DNA from: an uncultured Holophagaceae bacterium
Lineage (GTDB): Bacteria; Acidobacteriota; Holophagae; Holophagales; Holophagaceae
Assembly: GCA_903839205.1 (NCBI GenBank)
Contig: CAIMBM010000054.1
Location: 1 to 37,090 of the forward strand
DNA length: 37,090 bases
Direction of reading: 5' to 3'
Shown here: piece by piece, positions 21,388 to 29,864 of the stretch
Layout of the letters: each line of letters starts with the position of its first letter
Numbering within the stretch: position 1 is the first letter of the stretch
Position numbers and translations under genes: made by a program
Notes under the pieces: model-generated
Database searches by the model: none
Seen by the model: the letters and a program-made list of their open reading frames with translations, nothing else
What the model was told of the DNA's origin: nothing

Positions 21388-23123
21388 GCCGCCTGGACTG
21401 GCTCGTCCTCGGCGGCTCCCTGCTCTTCGTCGTCCTCTGGGGCCTCTACAAAGGCCGGGGCAGCACGACCGGCGAGGGCTACATCGGCGGGGGCCGGGAC
21501 CACCGCTGGTGGCTCATCGGCCTCTCCATCATCGCCACCCAGACCAGCGCCATCACCTTCCTCTCCACACCGGGCCAGGCCTACGTGGACGGCATGCGCT
21601 TCGTGCAGTTCTACTTCGGCCTGCCCATCGCCGCCGTCCTCCTCTCCGTCACCCTCCTTCCCCTCTACCACCGGCTGAAGGTGTCCACGGCCTACGAGAT
21701 CCTGGAGGCCCGCTTCGACCTGAAGACCCGGCTCCTGGCCGCGGGGCTCTTCCTCGTCCAGCGCAGCCTCGCCGTGGGCCTCACCATCTTCGCGCCGGCG
21801 CTGGTCCTGTCGGTGCTGCTGGGCTGGAGCATCCACGCCAACATCCTGCTAGTGGGCACGCTGGTCATGATCTACACCGTGGCGGGCGGCACCAGGGCCG
21901 TGGCCTGGGCCCACAGTTCCCAGATGCTCATCATCGCCTGCGGAATGGTCCTCGCGGGGATCATGACCGCCCACCGCCTGCCAGCCCAGGTGAGCTTAGC
22001 CGATGCCCTCCACGTGGCCGGCGGGCTGGGACGCCTGAACGTCATCGACCCTCATTTCGACCCCCACAACCGCTACAACCTCTGGTCCGGGCTCATCGGC
22101 GGCACCTTCCTCATGCTTTCCTACTTCGGCACGGACCAGTCCCAGGTGCAACGCTACCTGGCGGGCAGCGACCTCACCCAGAGCCGCCTGGGGCTGCTCA
22201 TGAACGGCATGATCAAGGTGCCCATGCAGTTCCTCATCCTGCTCCTGGGGGCCCTGGTCTTCGTCTTCTACCAGTTCCACACCCCGCCCCTCTTTTTCAA
22301 CCCGGGCCCCGTGAAGCAGGTGCTGGCGGGCCCCGATGGGTCCGCCTACCGCGCCCTCGAGCTGAAGTTTTCCAAAGCCCGGGAAGGCCAGAGACAGAAG
22401 GCCGAGGCCTATGTCGCCGCAAGGCATGCCGGAGACCCGGCCTCGACCGCCACGGCGAGGGAGCAGCTCCTGCAATCCCACGCCGAGAGCGAGGCGATCC
22501 GACGTGAGGGGGTGGCCCTCATCGAGAAGGCCAACCCGGGCACCAACCCCAGTGACACGAACTACATCTTCCTCGCCTACGTGCTGAGCAGCCTACCCGC
22601 GGGCCTGGTGGGCCTCATCATCGCCGCCGTGTTCTCGGGCTCGATGTCCTCCATGTCCGGGGAGATCAGCGCCCTGGGGGCCACGACGGTGGTGGACCTG
22701 TGGCGGCGCCTCATCGGCGGCAGCCGGGGCGTGCGCGAAGTGTGGGTGGGGCGCGTGGCCACCTTTGCCTGGGGCTGCTTCGCCATGGCCTTCGCCGAAT
22801 ACGCGGCTCGCCTGGGATCGCTCATCGAGGCCGTGAACATCCTGGGCTCCCTCTTCTACGGCACCATCCTCGGCATCTTCATCACGGCCTTCTACGTCAA
22901 GCGGGTCCGGGGCGGGGCGGCCTTCTACGCGGCCCTCGTGGCCGAGGTGGGCGTGCTCGCCTGCTTCCGGTTCACGACCATCTCGTTCCTCTGGTACAAC
23001 GTCATCGGCTGCCTGGCCGTGGTGGGCCTGGCCTGGGCCTTCAGCCTGACCCAGGATCCGGGGGCCGGGGCTCCGGGAAACGCGCCAGGTGGGACTCGTA
23101 CAGGCGCACCAGGAATTCCATGA
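21384..23123 (+). CDS. sodium:solute symporter (SSS family)
   Basis: This 579-residue inner-membrane transporter has about 13 helices and the LeuT fold. It shows the family start (LDWLVLGGSLLFVVLWGLYKG, cited in part), the sodium-site region SIIATQTSAITFLSTPG in helix 1, and the conserved SYFGTDQSQVQRYLAG and VFSGSMSSMSGEISALG segments. An insertion of charged residues (about 325-385) lies between helices on the cytoplasmic or periplasmic side. The GTG start overlaps the stop of the small peptide gene. The last 25 or so residues are Gly/Pro/Ala-rich and are encoded opposite the end of the dehydratase gene (83-base overlap). This tail is not typical of the family. The substrate may be a sugar or amino-sugar compound, inferred only from the neighbouring deacetylase. 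Confidence 0.9.
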   Translation: MSRLDWLVLGGSLLFVVLWGLYKGRGSTTGEGYIGGGRDHRWWLIGLSIIATQTSAITFLSTPGQAYVDGMRFVQFYFGLPIAAVLLSVTLLPLYHRLKVSTAYEILEARFDLKTRLLAAGLFLVQRSLAVGLTIFAPALVLSVLLGWSIHANILLVGTLVMIYTVAGGTRAVAWAHSSQMLIIACGMVLAGIMTAHRLPAQVSLADALHVAGGLGRLNVIDPHFDPHNRYNLWSGLIGGTFLMLSYFGTDQSQVQRYLAGSDLTQSRLGLLMNGMIKVPMQFLILLLGALVFVFYQFHTPPLFFNPGPVKQVLAGPDGSAYRALELKFSKAREGQRQKAEAYVAARHAGDPASTATAREQLLQSHAESEAIRREGVALIEKANPGTNPSDTNYIFLAYVLSSLPAGLVGLIIAAVFSGSMSSMSGEISALGATTVVDLWRRLIGGSRGVREVWVGRVATFAWGCFAMAFAEYAARLGSLIEAVNILGSLFYGTILGIFITAFYVKRVRGGAAFYAALVAEVGVLACFRFTTISFLWYNVIGCLAVVGLAWAFSLTQDPGAGAPGNAPGGTRTGAPGIP

Positions 23124-26100
23124 GGACCCACTCGTGCTCCCGGGGGTGGGATCGGAGCAGCCGGTTGAGGTGCATGTGGGACAGGCTTCCGGCGAGGCTG
23201 GCCAGCTCTTCCTGAAGGAATCCCCGCTCGCAGGCCTCCCGGAGGGCGGACAGCGGACTCAGGTCCGGTTCCGCGGAGGGACCGGTGGCCGCGGGGAAGC
23301 CCGAGGCCAGGTCCTTCCGCAGGTCCCGGAACCGCAAGCCCAGCTGCAGAGCCGCCTGGCCCGAATCGTCGAATTCCTTCCGGAAGCCCGCCCGGAGGGC
23401 TTCGGCCAATGCCTTCCGGTCAGCGACGTTCAGGCCCAGGGCGGCCCAGAGGGCATCGGTTCGCTTCAGGCCCGCCCTCCAGCGCTGCTCCGGCGTCATG
23501 CCCCGGACCAGGCGGCCCAGGATGCATTGGCTGTCGGCATGGAACCACCCTTCGGCCAGGGCAAAGCCCCCGGGACCTCCGTAACGCTCCCATTCCGGCT
23601 CGAAGGTATCCACCTGCACCTTCCACAGGAGGCCCTGGGTCAGGGGGACCTCCAGGTGCTGATGGATCCGGGGGAGAAGTGCTGCGAGGAGGCGGCCGGG
23701 GACCCCATGGAAGCGCAGCCGCAGGTGGGGTTCCGGATCGCGGTAGCGGAGGAAGTGCCAGCGGTCCCAGAGCCCTTCGGCCCGGGTGGATCGAAGGAGG
23801 GGCTCCAGTTCCACCAGGAGCCGGTCCGCGCTGGCCAGCCCGCAGTAGAGCTTGAGGTAGAGCCATTCGGAACCGGGAGGATAGGCCCTGGTTCCGGGGG
23901 CCCGGGACAGCGGGGCGAGGGGAAGGGTCCGCCGCGGGGCGGGCGTGGTCGCCTCGAAGGGAAGCACCAGCTCATGGGCGAACCGCCCTTCCGGGGAGGT
24001 GACCAGAGCCAGGCCCGGGTCCGGGAAGCATTCCGTGAGGAGGAAGGAGGATTGGTTCGAGACCAGGTGGTGCAGGGTCTCCACGTCGAGCCCCTGGTCC
24101 AGGTCCACCAGGAGGGCATTGTCGGCCTCGGTGAGGGTCACAAAGCGCGGCAGCCCCCGGCTTTCCCGGAGGATCTGAAAGGCGCCCCAGGCCCCCTCCC
24201 GGGAGCCGGTCAGGGCCGCCCCCAGTTCCCCGGCTTCGATCCTCCAGCGCGCCTTGCTGAGCACGTGCCGGCCCCGGGTGACCCGCGGGAGGAAGGGCTG
24301 GTCGGCCAGCACCCCCCAGGACCATCCCCCGGGGCGCCCGTCCTGGCTCTGGAGGTGGGCCAGGAACCGGTACACCGCCGGCCCGCGGGCGAAGTTGTGC
24401 GCCGAGGACAGGCGGGGGATCACCTCGCGTCCCAGCCGCGTCGAGGCCAGGACCACGCGGTCGCCACGCACCGTCACCTGGAGGTCGGCAGGGAAGAGGG
24501 TCCGCTCCGGCGGGACGCCGGAGGTGGCCAGGAAGGGGATCTCGTAGGCCCGCAGGGAGGGCCGGGCCAGGATGTTGCCCATCCTGCCCTCGGGCACATG
24601 GACCAGCTCGGCGAACACCGCTTCCGGAGATCCCGCTTCCTCTTTCCGAAGGTGGGTTTCGAGCGCCTCCCTCAGGGCCGGGTCCCCGGAGGCGAAGCGC
24701 CCCAGCCACCGGGCGGCCGTGGGCCCCGAGTACTGTTCCATCCAGAACTGGAAATCACCCCGGTCCAGGGCCTCGGGGCTGGAGGCCTCGAGGGTGGCCT
24801 GGGCGGCGAAGGACTGGGGAAAGGGCGGCGGCTCCGGAGCGGCGAGGGCCTCCAGGTCCTCGTCCTCCAGGGCCCAGGCCCTAGCTCCCTGCCACCGGGG
24901 CAGCCGCGCCAGGAGCAACTTGTCCCGGGCGGACAGCGGCAGGGGAGGGAGCGGGTTCCCGAAGGGCAGGCCCTCCAGCAAGGATGAATCCATGGGCGCG
25001 CCCCCATCGAAGCCCAGGCCGCTCTCTTCGTCCAGCACATCCAGGAGCGGCATCCATCGACCGTCGTAGCGCGCCAGGAAGGCCGCCCGGAACCGGTCCA
25101 GGGGACCCTCCGGGGGGGGCGTGCTGAGCCGCCGCAGCAGTTCCGCCCCCTCCTCCAGGACCCGGCGTACCCTGGGAGAAAGGGCCAGGCCCGGAGCGGG
25201 CCGGAAGAGGTCCACCTGGAGGACATCCCGCGTGCCGGCGGACATCCCCAGGTCCGCCTGGGGCGGGGCCAGGCTGCCATAGCCCCTCGGATGGGCGCCG
25301 AGGGGCGCCTCCTGAAGGGCCTTCAGTTCCGCACCCAGCTTGATCAGGACCTCGGCCCTGGGGGCCGTGGCCGGGTTCGCCTGGAGGGTGGCGGCCACCT
25401 GACCCAGGGGATCGGGGCCTGTGAGGGGTGGCTGGAGTTCTCCGCACAGCAGCTGGGCGTCGACCAGCTGCTCCAGGAAGGCCCTGGCTTCCGTTGGACC
25501 CACTTGCACGTGGCCGGCCAGGTCCGCCGCCAGGTCCCCCAGGCACGACCCCTCCGGCGCCTGCCGAAGCACCAAGTCCAGGTGGGGCGTCGCCTCCACG
25601 GCCTCCAGGTGGTAAGTCCGGCCCTCCCCGTCTGCAGCCTTCCGGCGCTCGAGGTAGCGGTACCACCCCCCCCGGGCAAAGAGGCTCGAGTTGGGCCGAT
25701 AGCGCATCGAGGCCCGCACCTCCGGCTCCTGCTCCAAGCGATCCACCAGGGCTTCCAGAACGCCCCAGTCCAGGCGCACGGCCTTCCGGCACTCCGACCA
25801 GGAGCCCACGGAGAGGCTGCTGGCTGGGCCCCAGGCCCCCAGGGAGACCCCCGCGAAGAGCCCGAAGGGGGTCGACCGGCTGCTCATCCTGCGGAGGTAC
25901 TTCCACAGGGCCCGTTCCACCCTCCCGGCCGCAGCCTGCTCCAGGGTCCCCTCCAGCCAGGGATCCAGCCGCGCGGCGAGATCCGGAGAGGCGAGGGCCA
26001 GGGCCTCCCGCACCGGGTCGAGGCGGGCCAGGTGCCGCAGTGTCCGGGACAGGGCCTGCCGGCCCTCCGGCTCCGCCAGGGAGGAGAGGGCAGCCAAGGG

Positions 26101-26160
26101 CAGGCCAGGGCTGCGGAGCACGAAAAAATCAGCAGTCTGGCAGGTGGGCCGGTGGGACAT
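23041..26160 (-). CDS. full-length LanB-type lantibiotic/thiopeptide dehydratase
   Basis: This 1,039-residue class I dehydratase would use glutamyl-tRNA to glutamylate Ser/Thr in a precursor peptide and then eliminate glutamate to give Dha/Dhb. The N-terminal glutamylation domain has ADFFVLRSPGLP, RRMSSRSTPFGLFAG (residues 90-104) and NSSLFARGGWYRYLERR. It also has FLPRVTRGRHVLSKARW and PRFVTLTEADNALLVDLD. The elimination domain (about 763-1039) shows RWHFLRYRDPEPHLRLRF, ERYGGPGG, and the final SHMHLNR with the catalytic-type histidine. Both halves keep their hallmark residues, so it is probably active and is not a split or PEARL-type enzyme. The ATG at 26160 has AAGGA nine bases upstream; the frame extends 16 codons further but without support. 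No LanC lies nearby. Confidence 0.93.
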   Translation of the reverse strand: MSHRPTCQTADFFVLRSPGLPLAALSSLAEPEGRQALSRTLRHLARLDPVREALALASPDLAARLDPWLEGTLEQAAAGRVERALWKYLRRMSSRSTPFGLFAGVSLGAWGPASSLSVGSWSECRKAVRLDWGVLEALVDRLEQEPEVRASMRYRPNSSLFARGGWYRYLERRKAADGEGRTYHLEAVEATPHLDLVLRQAPEGSCLGDLAADLAGHVQVGPTEARAFLEQLVDAQLLCGELQPPLTGPDPLGQVAATLQANPATAPRAEVLIKLGAELKALQEAPLGAHPRGYGSLAPPQADLGMSAGTRDVLQVDLFRPAPGLALSPRVRRVLEEGAELLRRLSTPPPEGPLDRFRAAFLARYDGRWMPLLDVLDEESGLGFDGGAPMDSSLLEGLPFGNPLPPLPLSARDKLLLARLPRWQGARAWALEDEDLEALAAPEPPPFPQSFAAQATLEASSPEALDRGDFQFWMEQYSGPTAARWLGRFASGDPALREALETHLRKEEAGSPEAVFAELVHVPEGRMGNILARPSLRAYEIPFLATSGVPPERTLFPADLQVTVRGDRVVLASTRLGREVIPRLSSAHNFARGPAVYRFLAHLQSQDGRPGGWSWGVLADQPFLPRVTRGRHVLSKARWRIEAGELGAALTGSREGAWGAFQILRESRGLPRFVTLTEADNALLVDLDQGLDVETLHHLVSNQSSFLLTECFPDPGLALVTSPEGRFAHELVLPFEATTPAPRRTLPLAPLSRAPGTRAYPPGSEWLYLKLYCGLASADRLLVELEPLLRSTRAEGLWDRWHFLRYRDPEPHLRLRFHGVPGRLLAALLPRIHQHLEVPLTQGLLWKVQVDTFEPEWERYGGPGGFALAEGWFHADSQCILGRLVRGMTPEQRWRAGLKRTDALWAALGLNVADRKALAEALRAGFRKEFDDSGQAALQLGLRFRDLRKDLASGFPAATGPSAEPDLSPLSALREACERGFLQEELASLAGSLSHMHLNRLLRSHPREHEWVLMEFLVRLYESHLARFPEPRPPDPGSG

Positions 26161-26219: not shown

Positions 26220-26237
26220 GAGGTCACCGCAGACCTC
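26220..26237. repeat. inverted repeat in the dehydratase/peptide divergent region
   Basis: GAGGTC and GACCTC are separated by six bases, a perfect 6-bp dyad 60 bases upstream of the dehydratase start. It could be an operator for the leftward gene or a chance hairpin. No regulator is known for it. Confidence 0.35.
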
Positions 26238-26262
26238 CGAATGGTACCCCGGGACGGGCTCA

Positions 26263-26293
26263 ACGGTTAAAGTCGTGCTTAGATACCGTTCAT
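26263..26293 (+). promoter_or_regulatory. tandem LytTR-like binding sites upstream of the peptide gene
   Basis: The published LytTR half-site pattern is [TA][AC][CA]GTTN[AG][TG]. ACCGTTCAT at 26285-26293 fits at all nine positions, and ACGGTTAAA at 26263-26271 fits at seven. Their starts are 22 bp apart, two helical turns, the spacing usual for LytTR direct repeats. They lie 75-105 bases before the peptide start. A LytTR response regulator is encoded 1.3 kb downstream, so control of the peptide and signalling genes is plausible. I did not find a strong -10 box. Confidence 0.5.
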
Positions 26294-26367
26294 GGAAAGG
26301 CTTAGGATTTCCAGCCGACCGAGTTCAAAACCTTGGGTGCGCCCCGTGGTGCGACCTGGGAGTTCCC

Positions 26368-26514
26368 ATGAACAGCAGCCTCTCCTTCCGCAAGGAATCC
26401 ATTCAGCGCTCCAGCAGCGCCAGCGAAGCCCTGAACCGTGCGCCGGAAGCCCAGAAGTCCGGGGCTGTCCGTGAGCAGAAGCCCATCTCCCTCACCACCG
26501 TACTTGGTTTCTAA
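26368..26514 (+). CDS. putative RiPP precursor peptide, 48 residues, no cysteine
   Basis: The small frame begins at an ATG with GGGAG five bases upstream and has G/C-rich third positions (about 79%). The N-terminal part carries SLSFRKESI, which resembles the L-x-[LF]-x-K-x-[ST]-I leader motif seen in Bacteroidetes class I lanthipeptide precursors. A Ser/Ala/Glu/Arg-rich leader follows. The C-terminus KPISLTTVLGF offers one Ser and two Thr for dehydration. There is no Cys, so no lanthionine ring could form. It is divergent from the LanB-type gene (207 bases apart) and is followed at once by a LytS/LytTR pair. The precursor role is inference from size, motif and position; I know no named relative. 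Confidence 0.62.
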   Translation: MNSSLSFRKESIQRSSSASEALNRAPEAQKSGAVREQKPISLTTVLGF

Positions 26515-27709
26515 TACCGATGGGCCTGATCTCTCCGGGTTCGATCCGGACAATGCTCATGAATCCGCAAGCCTACGGTCTTCCTGGTTCCCGCTGGCCA
26601 AGAATTGGCGGGTCCTCGGAGCCTGCTATTCCGTCTGGGTCCTCCTCATCCTGCAGGAGCATTGGACCCTTCATCGCCTTGGATCAGGTTGGATTTGGGC
26701 CAGCGCCCTCTCATCCCCACTCACCCACATCGGCGCCTTTGCCTTTCTGGCCCCCCTGCCCTGGATCCTGCCCCGACGACTTTCTTCGCCCTGGCGATTC
26801 ATCCTGGGGTTCACCCTTTCAGGGTTGGTTTGTGGATTAGTTGCAGCCTCTCTCCCCCTCCTTGATGCCTGGATACTCGCTCATGGAACTCTTCAGTTCA
26901 ATCTGGGTAGAATCTTGCGCCTCTACACCTCCCTGGTGGGTCCGGCCATGATGGTCGTGGGGGGACTGGTCGCAGCAAGGGCTCATACCGAAGAACTCCG
27001 GGAGGCCTTCGAAGCCGAGGCCCAGGTGGCCAAGAACCGCCTCCTCCAGAGCCAGATCCACCCCCACGTGCTGTTCAATGCGCTCAACGGCCTGGCGGAA
27101 CTCGTCTATAAGAACCCCAAGGCGGCCGAGCGCGCCATCCGGCATCTCTCGGACCTGCTCCGGCGTATCATGCGCGCTTCCGAGTACATGCGGCTGCCCC
27201 TCGGAGAAGAGCGCAAGATCATTTCGGACTTCCTGGCCCTGGAAGCCATCCGCCTGGAGAACCGGCTCCGGGTGGTCTGGGAGTGGGATGAGGATCTGGA
27301 CTCGATCGAAGTGCCCCCCCTGCTCCTCCAGCCCCTGGTGGAAAACGCCATCAAGCACGGCATCGCCCCCAGCATTCCCGGCGGCGACCTCGTGCTCCGC
27401 GCCCGGGCCCAGGGTGGGGCGATCTACCTGGAGGTCTGGAACTCCGGGGCGCCCTTCCATGACAGCGAGGCCGGAAATGGCCTGGGGGTGAGGAACCTGC
27501 GCTCGCGCCTGTCGCTGCATTTCGGCGCCGGGGCCAGCTTCTCGGTCGGTCCCTCCGGCCAGGGCACGCTGGCCTGCATTCGGCTGGAGGCGATCCAAGT
27601 AGAATACGTTCATGAAACGTCTGAACGCCTTGGTGGTCGACGACGAACCGCTGGCAAGGGAGCGGCTGTCGCGGCTACTCCAGGAAGCGGAATGCACAGT
27701 TATCGGTGA
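26504..27709 (+). CDS. LytS/AlgZ-type membrane histidine kinase
   Basis: This kinase of about 401 residues has four predicted membrane helices (near residues 37-53, 62-88, 98-124 and 140-159) and a His_kinase domain. The phospho-acceptor box is QIHPHVLFNALNG, with the receiving histidine near 188. A HATPase module follows with LVENAIKHGIAP as the N-box and GLGVRNLRSRL as the G-box. No separate ligand domain exists, so sensing must involve the membrane part. The start is uncertain: the frame has no ATG. TTG at 26504 overlaps the peptide gene stop; GTG at 26471 or 26438 would extend into the peptide gene as low complexity. The end overlaps the response regulator by 98 bases, so expression is coupled. 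Confidence 0.85.
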   Translation: MVSNTDGPDLSGFDPDNAHESASLRSSWFPLAKNWRVLGACYSVWVLLILQEHWTLHRLGSGWIWASALSSPLTHIGAFAFLAPLPWILPRRLSSPWRFILGFTLSGLVCGLVAASLPLLDAWILAHGTLQFNLGRILRLYTSLVGPAMMVVGGLVAARAHTEELREAFEAEAQVAKNRLLQSQIHPHVLFNALNGLAELVYKNPKAAERAIRHLSDLLRRIMRASEYMRLPLGEERKIISDFLALEAIRLENRLRVVWEWDEDLDSIEVPPLLLQPLVENAIKHGIAPSIPGGDLVLRARAQGGAIYLEVWNSGAPFHDSEAGNGLGVRNLRSRLSLHFGAGASFSVGPSGQGTLACIRLEAIQVEYVHETSERLGGRRRTAGKGAAVAATPGSGMHSYR

Positions 27710-28352
27710 GCTCGGGGATGGCCTGGCGCTGCTCCACTGGCTGAGCCAGCCCCATGATGTGGACGTGATCTTCCTGGACATCCAGATGCCCGGCCCCAAC
27801 GGGATGGAGGTGCTGGCGGAGGTCCCCAACTGTCCGCCGGTGGTCTTCGTGACTGCCCACGCCACCTATGCAGTCCGCGCCTTCGAACTCGCCGCCGTGG
27901 ACTACCTGTTGAAGCCCGTGTTCGAGGACAGGCTTGGAAAGTGCCTGCAGCGGTTGCGCAACCATCTGATCCGCCCCCTCAGCCCCTCGGAGCTGAAGGC
28001 GCTGCTCCCGCCACCCGCGCGCTTTCCCATCCGGGCCGGCGACGGGGAGATCTTCATGGAGCTGGAACTGGTCACCCACTTCGAACTGGAGCATGAGCGT
28101 GTGTGGGCCTGTCGGGGTCTCAACCGGTACGTCACCCGCTGGACCGCCCTCTCGGAAGTGGAAGAGGCCTTCCCCGACGACGGCATGCTGCGGATCCAGC
28201 GCCATCTGCTCCTCAGGCCCCAGATGGTCAAGGGGGTCCGTCCCACCACGGTCGGGCGAATCAAGGTGCTGATCGCTCCCAAGGTGGAACTCACCGTGAG
28301 CCGCGCCATGACGCCCCGCACGAGGGAGTGCATCCGGACCGGGACCGTCTGA
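27612..28352 (+). CDS. LytTR-family response regulator
   Basis: This 246-residue regulator is the partner of the kinase just upstream. The receiver domain (about 1-120) has the acidic pair D10/D11, the phosphorylation site D56 in IFLDIQMPGPNG, the switch Thr in FVTAH and the lysine in DYLLKP. The C-terminal LytTR DNA-binding domain (about 135-240) shows VWACRGLNRYVTRWTALSEV, LRIQRHLLLRP and the ending VELTVSRAMTPR, as in AgrA/LytR proteins. LytTR domains bind direct repeats about 21-22 bp apart, and such repeats occur before the small peptide gene. The regulator probably controls the peptide and dehydratase genes and perhaps its own operon; this last step is inference. Confidence 0.93.
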   Translation: MKRLNALVVDDEPLARERLSRLLQEAECTVIGELGDGLALLHWLSQPHDVDVIFLDIQMPGPNGMEVLAEVPNCPPVVFVTAHATYAVRAFELAAVDYLLKPVFEDRLGKCLQRLRNHLIRPLSPSELKALLPPPARFPIRAGDGEIFMELELVTHFELEHERVWACRGLNRYVTRWTALSEVEEAFPDDGMLRIQRHLLLRPQMVKGVRPTTVGRIKVLIAPKVELTVSRAMTPRTRECIRTGTV

Positions 28353-28380: not shown

Positions 28381-28577
28381 ACATCGCCCTTCCCGGGGTA
28401 GGTCCCTTCAGGGGCCTGAGCGCGAATTCCTGGCAGCCCCTCTCCCGTTCGGAGGCGGGGAAAGCACCATTCGGCGGAAAACGAATCCTGACACAGGGGC
28501 CGGAACTATGATCTGGAACCTCCTGGGATTGCACTTGCCCAGTTTGCATACGAGGCCTCGAGATCCGGGAGATGCCA

Positions 28578-29864
28578 ATGGTTACCAGTCGGTCCAGCCA
28601 TTTGTCCCGGCACGCCAAACCGCTTCACCATCCGGTTCAGTTCGGGCCCTGGAAATTCACAAGTCTCAGCGATTCCAAGTATCCGGAGACCCAGGCAGTG
28701 ATCAAAGACTTAACCACAAGGAGGCGCCTGGCGGAGAGGAGCAGACACCTCTCCTCGGCCCTTGACCAGGTGTTGGAGGCCATCGCCATCCTGGAGGCCA
28801 GGACGGGCGCCATCCTCTACGCGAATACGCATTTTTCCCGGCTGTTCGGAAATCCCAGCCACTGGTCTTCCGGCCAGACCTTCCTGGAACAGTTTGAGTG
28901 CCGGATCCTGGCCACCGCCCTTGAGCAGGCGCGCCTGGGCCGGGCCTGGACGGGCCGTTCCTTCCTGAATACTCAAGCGGGCAAACGGATCACCTTCGAG
29001 GGCACGGTCTCCCCGGAGCGCAACCCCGAAGGCACCGTCGAATCCCTGGTGGTGAGACTCCGGGACATCAGCCTTGAGGTGGAGAAGGACCACCACTTCC
29101 GCCAGGCCCAGAAGATGAATGCCCTCGGCGCTCTGGCGGGGGGCATGGCCCACGACTTCAACAACCTGGTCGGAGCCATTCTGGCAGCCGCCGAACTCAT
29201 CGAACGGCAGGTCGAACCGGATAGCCCCATCCAGAAGCGGCTGCAGGTCATCCAGCGGGTGGCCGGCCGGGCCAGGGACCTGAGCAAGCAGATCCTGAAC
29301 TTCAGCCGGCGTTCCGATGAGACATGGACCCCCTTCGACCTCACGGACCTCCTCTCCGAGGTGATCACCTTTCTGCAGACCACGCTCCCGAGGAACGTGG
29401 AGGTGCGGAGTGACCTGGCCAAGGGAATCCGGATCCTCGGGGATCCTTCCCAGCTGCACCAGGCGATCATGAACCTGGGGATCAACGGGAGCCAGGCCAT
29501 GCAGCCGGCTGGTGGCGTCCTGTCCATCAGCCTCCAGCCCATGGAGGCCCTTCAGTCGGTGGTCGACCGCCCCTTCCAGGAGCCCTGCGTCCTGCTTAGC
29601 ATCGAGGACACGGGATGCGGCATGGACTCCCACACGCTGGAAAGGATCTTCGAGCCCTTCTTCACCACCAAGGAGGCGGGCCAGGGGACGGGCCTCGGTC
29701 TTTCGGTGGTGAACGGCATCGTTCAGGGGCATGGGGGAAACCTGCAGGTTTCCAGCCAGTTGGGGAAGGGGAGCTCCTTCAAGATCTGCCTTCCGACCCA
29801 CCAGGATCTGCCCATGAGGCTGGATCTGGACAGCCCGCCCTTGAACGCCAGCAGCAATTTCTGA
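28578..29864 (+). CDS. orphan PAS sensor histidine kinase (NtrB-like)
   Basis: This soluble kinase of about 428 residues lacks membrane helices. The first 55 residues are unassigned. A PAS domain (about 60-165, with LDQVLEAIAILEARTGAILYA, cited in part) is followed by the dimerisation helix with the phospho-acceptor GALAGGMAHDFNNLVGA. A complete HATPase has DTGCGMDSH, FEPFFTTKEAGQGTGLGL and GKGSSFKICLP. The AHDFNN form of the H-box is typical of NtrB-like/hybrid kinases. I took the ATG at 28578, six bases after GGGAG, over the ATG two codons earlier. No response regulator adjoins it: the LytTR regulator upstream already has its own kinase and is separated by a hairpin. Confidence 0.9.
   Translation: MVTSRSSHLSRHAKPLHHPVQFGPWKFTSLSDSKYPETQAVIKDLTTRRRLAERSRHLSSALDQVLEAIAILEARTGAILYANTHFSRLFGNPSHWSSGQTFLEQFECRILATALEQARLGRAWTGRSFLNTQAGKRITFEGTVSPERNPEGTVESLVVRLRDISLEVEKDHHFRQAQKMNALGALAGGMAHDFNNLVGAILAAAELIERQVEPDSPIQKRLQVIQRVAGRARDLSKQILNFSRRSDETWTPFDLTDLLSEVITFLQTTLPRNVEVRSDLAKGIRILGDPSQLHQAIMNLGINGSQAMQPAGGVLSISLQPMEALQSVVDRPFQEPCVLLSIEDTGCGMDSHTLERIFEPFFTTKEAGQGTGLGLSVVNGIVQGHGGNLQVSSQLGKGSSFKICLPTHQDLPMRLDLDSPPLNASSNF

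Follow-up and report, generated by a model that had tools for sequence, protein, structure and literature searches.

A candidate shared-site LytTR operator between a LanB-type dehydratase gene and a peptide-kinase-regulator operon in a possible Holophagaceae signaling cassette

In a Geothrix-like bacterium, a gene for a full-length LanB-type dehydratase lies divergent from genes for a small peptide, a sensor histidine kinase and a LytTR response regulator, and the DNA between them appears to form a three-site, two-way operator, with one pair of sites directed at the peptide-kinase-regulator genes and the other at lanB (Table 1). Judged from its conservation among relatives, this is very probably the operator of the neighboring regulator for the peptide side, and we think it likely that it serves both the peptide and lanB. 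On our best reading, the four genes look like a self-contained cell-to-cell signaling circuit built on the plan of ComQXPA or agr, with LanB as the signal-modifying enzyme. The most complete form of this proposal, a Holophagaceae quorum-sensing cassette in which a cyclase-free LanB yields a linear dehydroamino-acid pheromone, with a four-helix kinase and one shared-middle three-site operator that fires all of the genes, is tentative, and we hold it at somewhat below even. Throughout, ‘the window’ is the whole stretch of DNA analyzed, 37,090 nucleotides in length.

Table 1. Coordinates of the cassette features in the window.
Feature	Position	Strand	Remarks
LanB-type dehydratase, divergent, full-length	23041..26160	-	PF04738 and PF14028
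Site M1, ACCATTCGG	26237..26245	-	Putative outer half-site facing lanB; 8/9; 22 bp from M2
Shared middle site, CTCAACGGTTAAA	26259..26271	both	Overlapping M2 and P0 readings
Site P1, ACCGTTCAT	26285..26293	+	Putative half-site on the peptide side, proximal to the promoter; P0 is 22 bp away
-35-like element, TAGGAT	26303..26308	+	Proposed from conserved columns; TTGG in most relatives
-10-like element, CAAAAC (consensus CANAAC)	26326..26331	+	Proposed from conserved columns; 17-bp spacer
Leader hairpin, GCGCC-N4-GGTGC	26339..26352	+	5-pair stem directly before the ribosome-binding site
Ribosome-binding site of the peptide gene, GGGAG	26358..26362	+	By inspection; conserved in aligned relatives
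Precursor peptide, 48 aa, leader beginning MNSSLSFRKESIQRSS	26368..26514	+	Thr-rich core without Cys
Sensor histidine kinase (PF06580)	26525..27709	+	Start codon uncertain; open frame from 26438
Response regulator, receiver and LytTR domains	27612..28352	+	Presumed ligand of the operator

A preliminary description had reported two LytTR-like nonamers in direct orientation before the peptide gene, and the coordinates, plus-strand orientation, 22-bp spacing and scores given there were borne out in the window sequence. The site P0, ACGGTTAAA (26263-26271), matches the nonamer pattern at seven of nine positions and P1 at nine of nine, so that the two form a direct repeat with a 22-bp period 5’ of the small peptide gene. 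The consensus letters used for scoring are those which we take to be the LytTR nonamer, and they agree with the usage of the preliminary description. A passage of PMC2766830 describes ‘9-bp repeats separated by 12 bp’, without consensus letters. Perfect nonamers are no more frequent in the window than expected (7 observed versus 9.06), and another 9/9 match, TACGTTCAT at 27605-27613, overlaps the start codon of the regulator, has no partner site and is probably due to chance. We ran 5000 dinucleotide shuffles on the intergenic region (207 bp): 50 of them contained such a pair with GTT cores, and 213 did if the GTT was not required. Taken alone, the pair in the window is therefore just suggestive, and conservation in relatives has to decide.

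We compared 47 genomes of the same genus, 27 of which have a LanB match. In 27 of the 47, ACSGTT-N16-ACCGTTNRTG has a single match per genome, and the reversed control of this pattern has none in any of the 47. A longer pattern with up to three mismatches gave 30 matches in 28 genomes (control, 0), all of them at this cassette or at a lanB-less form of it. The additional three-mismatch places were one in G004, with 21-bp spacing, and second copies in G043 (locus L032), with GTC in P1, and in G018, where P0 is degraded and P1 kept. The preliminary description had proposed following both GTT cores into relatives; among the 27 lanB-linked operators (a count that leaves out L034, L037 and L038, which carry other LanB groups), P0 keeps its GTT in every one and P1 in 26, where it also scores 9/9, the GTC-bearing P1 of L032 scoring 8/9. 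A chance match to a loose consensus, which the 50 shuffles in 5000 might seem to allow, thus becomes a negligible prospect, ruled out in practice by the genus-wide conservation, the absence of control matches and the conservation of the alignment columns. A one-mismatch family search also gave two matches outside the cassette (G068:C462 and G074), where 10 query proteins were unmatched; we took these as chance. Beyond the 30 matches at cassette loci, the three-mismatch search of the 47 genomes found no second operator in any genome, which leaves two options: the peptide is itself the output, or further targets match the pattern less closely.

The operator also follows the regulator. An ortholog of at least 70% identity is present in 28 of the 47 genomes, and wherever the operator region is assembled as well, the operator is there (27 of 27; G034, whose contig begins within the kinase gene, is left out). 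The 18 remaining genomes have neither the ortholog nor, with three mismatches allowed, the operator. In G027 only 20 bases separate the operator from a contig end, which puts the regulator gene out of view. This distribution strengthens the earlier suggestion that the LytTR regulator encoded downstream is a candidate activator of the peptide gene. Same-genus genomes also contain further LytTR regulators, which counts against the assignment.

The preliminary description had missed a third site, M1, which is reversed and lies 21-22 bp nearer the dehydratase gene. Its partner is the site between M1 and P1, which is palindromic (CAACGGTTG) and offers a half-site to either strand: P0 on the plus strand and M2, ACCGTTGAG (26259-26267, 9/9), on the minus strand. 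The two direct sites claimed earlier are both real in this sense, but the 7/9 member is better seen as a shared palindromic site than as just a weak repeat. Across the 27 lanB-linked operators, the AACGGTT of the middle site is invariant; read on the minus strand it scores 9/9 in 24 and 8/9 in 3, and on the plus strand 7/9 in all. M1 lies 22 bp from M2 in 24 of these operators and 21 bp in the other three, and it scores 8-9/9 in 23 and 7/9 in four. An inverted repeat of M2 with P1 only is suggested by their 9/9 scores, but the conserved 21-22 bp phase joins P0 with P1 and M2 with M1, and for this reason we take the middle to be one putative shared palindromic site.

More distant loci, whose LanB proteins are 47-55% identical, keep three sites at 21-22 bp: L110 and L111 (G070, G066), L156 (G068) and L160 (G067). 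The last of these was fetched as a test of the three-site prediction, and the architecture was present. The center of the middle site is flipped to AACCGTT in L137 (G070) and in L110, which makes the plus-strand reading the perfect one in L110. L162 (G031) and L163 (G016) carry a second, more distant LanB (47-48% identical), located some kilobases from other LytTR regulators and perhaps adjoined by a LanC-like frame (by eye).

Is the lanB side truly regulated? Column conservation is high across both pairs and the P0-P1 spacer and falls to background past M1 toward lanB. It might be that only the peptide side is regulated, P0 and P1 being autoregulatory, M1 incidental or decaying, and lanB under a promoter of its own. 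P0 and P1 are indeed conserved far better than M1, which keeps its GTT core in 15 of the 27 lanB-linked operators and has lost it in 12, the window included; the lanB side is accordingly the weaker one. Between M1 and lanB, neither sequence nor length is constant, and the aligned lanB-linked operators revealed no lanB promoter at a fixed distance from the sites. We nevertheless consider regulation of the peptide side only improbable, since the M1 columns stand out from their flanks, the 21-22 bp phase is kept in 27 of 27 operators and again in L110, L111, L156 and L160, and M1 is missing where lanB is absent. The preliminary description had said that the regulator ‘perhaps’ also acts on the divergent dehydratase gene, and this idea gains from an opposite pair that faces lanB on a shared middle and was lost together with lanB in G007 and G008. 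These two genomes lack lanB and the peptide and retain the kinase and regulator; P0, the spacer and P1 are unchanged, M1 is gone and the minus-strand core of the middle site is broken. Their flanks are shared with the second copy in G018, so a single event is probable, and the loss of the lanB-facing pair may be a chance effect of where the deletion ended.

The two-way operator that we favor is followed, on the peptide side, by a plausible promoter. The -35-like element begins 9 bp past P1 and reads TAGG in the window (consensus TTGG), and the -10-like element is a weak match to the sigma-70 consensus. According to a passage of PMC6193735, the direct repeats of LytTR systems precede the -35 by about 10 bp; the placement of P1 relative to our predicted -35 agrees with this rule. 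All 28 aligned sequences have 73 nt between the tenth base of P1 and the start codon (29 were found, and L030, with a deleted leader, was left out). The distance is also 73 nt in L137 and L156 and 74 nt in L138 (own count), near-constant across genera. The leader hairpin has modest support, with two pairs altered on both sides among 31 sequences. A sigma-54 promoter, considered by eye on account of the TGG...TTGG after P1, was rejected: the spacing is one off and there is no AAA+ regulator. No Rfam family was found in the window.

The proteins fit a modifying enzyme and a two-component system. LanB scores 543.7 and 193.8 bits against its N- and C-terminal Pfam domains and matches MibB- and NisB-type structures, and its alignment keeps counterparts of NisB Y80, R83, R87, T89, H961 and R966 (placement by our own count). 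Y80F and H961A abolish dehydration by NisB, as reported in part of PMC4341554. The kinase has four predicted membrane helices; its structural model (mean pLDDT 76.3) has four long helices in its N-terminal part and short loops at residues 49-54 and 120-126, which we infer from charge and order to be extracellular. For the regulator, PF00072 scores 83.3 bits and PF04397 27.8 bits (cut-off 22.6). Its model (mean pLDDT 82.9) has full-length ComE (4cbv) as best Foldseek match, at TM-scores of about 0.39, a value explained by the differing arrangement of the domains, and the LytTR domain structure 3d6w is also among the Foldseek matches. VIA-align of the regulator returned receiver domains throughout, with no LytTR entry among the matches listed. 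A PAS-type histidine kinase (28572-29864) follows the regulator in the window and likewise in L099, L101, L105 and L139, and does not do so in other loci. When the window proteins were compared across loci, no exporter, immunity gene, protease or LanC was conserved with the four genes, nor was there any consistent conserved neighbor beyond them.

The start of the peptide is near invariant (LSFRKESIQ type) and its last residues are variable and Thr-rich in the 25 peptides tabulated (L015, at a contig end, and L030 are left out). None has a Cys in its last 14 residues; L036 has one, in the leader. By the cysteine criterion, the cassette is not a lanthipeptide cluster. In L030 (G017), the operator and a core-like coding end are present, with the peptide start and leader deleted.

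Distances between the last 14 residues track the kinase sensor (partial r 0.45, corrected for LanB, kinase and regulator; 0 of 2000 permutations) over 20 loci, 10 of 30 earlier loci having been dropped for want of a full LanB or as distant, with the proviso that Mantel-type tests on related sequences are lenient. The core shows next to no relation to LanB given the sensor (0.048) or to the kinase domain given LanB (0.06). A scan along the kinase peaks at columns 61-75, the end of helix 1 plus loop 1 (r 0.537, 0 of 1000 permutations), all but disappears in the membrane helix that follows (0.003, 0.046) and comes back to 0.28 in the second loop; two variable windows in columns 316-345 give r 0.20-0.33. 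The leader correlates with the sensor as well (0.54 with kinase and regulator controls, 0.495 with LanB added). Because this tells against a simple reading, we added a null of 61 equally variable LanB windows: against loop 1, none reached the core value (mean 0.015, SD 0.136, maximum 0.316), while against the whole kinase sensor three did.

Such covariation could reflect local linkage, in which adjacent stretches are exchanged as a block, and not recognition. The genes adjoin. Correlation also extends to columns 1-60 of the kinase, the part closest to the peptide gene (r 0.31-0.37), whose first columns partly read peptide DNA in another frame. We nonetheless find linkage a rather unlikely explanation, given that the peak is not in the nearest columns, that the signal vanishes in the next helix and returns in the second loop, and that the equally variable middle of the peptide gives 0.10. 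Peptide-signal systems themselves commonly swap signal and receptor as one block. We regard the core-loop covariation as suggestive.

A different role for the peptide would be that of an antimicrobial or other effector, the kinase sensing something else such as envelope stress. LanB enzymes are familiar mainly from lantibiotic clusters, many RiPPs are antimicrobial (as noted in part of PMC10352776), and with a single operator per genome the product may itself be the output. We think an effector rather unlikely, since the compared loci conserve none of the export, immunity, protease or cyclase genes named above and the peptide combines a near-invariant leader with a variable core that tracks the kinase loop. 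That the peptide is the signal for its own kinase we put at even chances.

The circuit that we propose runs as follows, with binding, activation, dehydration, export and sensing as steps that we infer. The regulator, phosphorylated by the neighboring kinase, probably binds P0 and P1 as a dimer on the same helix face and would activate peptide, kinase and regulator from the weak promoter 9 bp past P1. A second dimer on the middle site and M1, 21-22 bp apart on the opposite strand, would probably activate lanB. LanB would then dehydrate Thr and Ser residues of the peptide core, and the first extracellular loop of the kinase would probably sense the modified peptide once it had left through an unlinked exporter. 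Sensing would pass through kinase, regulator and operator to yield more peptide, kinase, regulator and LanB, a positive feedback.

If the circuit holds, Geothrix, which has cultured species, would offer a first testable circuit for peptide signaling. LanB would gain a new role, tailoring a signal in place of building lanthionine rings, and a two-way operator with a shared site would offer a compact means of synchronizing signal, receptor and modifying enzyme. If the peptide is a pheromone, the loci that lack LanB (G007, G008 and the second copy in G018) would receive a signal and have none of their own. Kinase-regulator pairs lacking peptide and lanB stand at L096 (G018:C1:438000-454000), L095 and L098, and are possible receivers without a signal; in G018 such a pair stands beside a cassette whose lanB match covers residues 5-195 only. 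Among the sequences, core and receptor loop both come in many natural variants, which would allow swap tests of specificity.

In the open-licence literature we found nothing on this cassette, nor on Geothrix with a lanthipeptide. Among known systems, LRS pairs consist of a regulator and a membrane inhibitor, whereas here a receiver-domain regulator accompanies a histidine kinase. HdrRM and BrsRM resemble the proposed circuit in positive autoregulation through direct repeats placed some 10 bp ahead of the -35 (PMC6193735, in part). Class I lanthipeptide clusters such as that of nisin share the full-length LanB with both domains (NisB). Unlike them, the compared loci conserve no linked LanC, transporter or immunity genes, no Cys occurs in any core examined, and the regulator is of LytTR type. 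The sil autoinducer of Streptococcus pyogenes is not known to be modified. The nisin cluster is likewise autoregulated via a two-component system. Nisin induces its own biosynthesis, as stated in part of PMC4341554.

The sil system resembles the cassette in its control region, with a LytTR regulator (SilA), an autoinducer peptide and divergent promoters that each have a direct repeat (DR1/DR2), and exact repeat spacing is essential there; it differs in having two separate pairs, a 21-bp period (10-bp repeats, 11-bp spacer) and a dedicated ABC exporter (passages of PMC2766830). The agr system of Staphylococcus aureus (AgrA, P2/P3) likewise combines a LytTR regulator and direct repeats with two divergent promoters, and has a peptide-kinase-regulator operon. 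At each agr promoter the repeats form a separate pair (passages of PMC4227749), whereas here the middle site appears to be shared, and AgrB and a thiolactone take the place that LanB has here, no AgrB being among the four genes. The passages on agr and sil in PMC4227749 and PMC2766830 make no mention of a shared middle site. ComQXPA of Bacillus subtilis uses an isoprenyl transferase where this cassette has LanB, its regulator is of LuxR type (PF00196) and not LytTR, and its genes all lie on one strand, not divergently. It is alike in setting modifying enzyme, pre-peptide, membrane kinase and regulator side by side, and in pairing a variable peptide with a variable membrane part of the kinase (PMC4008528, in part).
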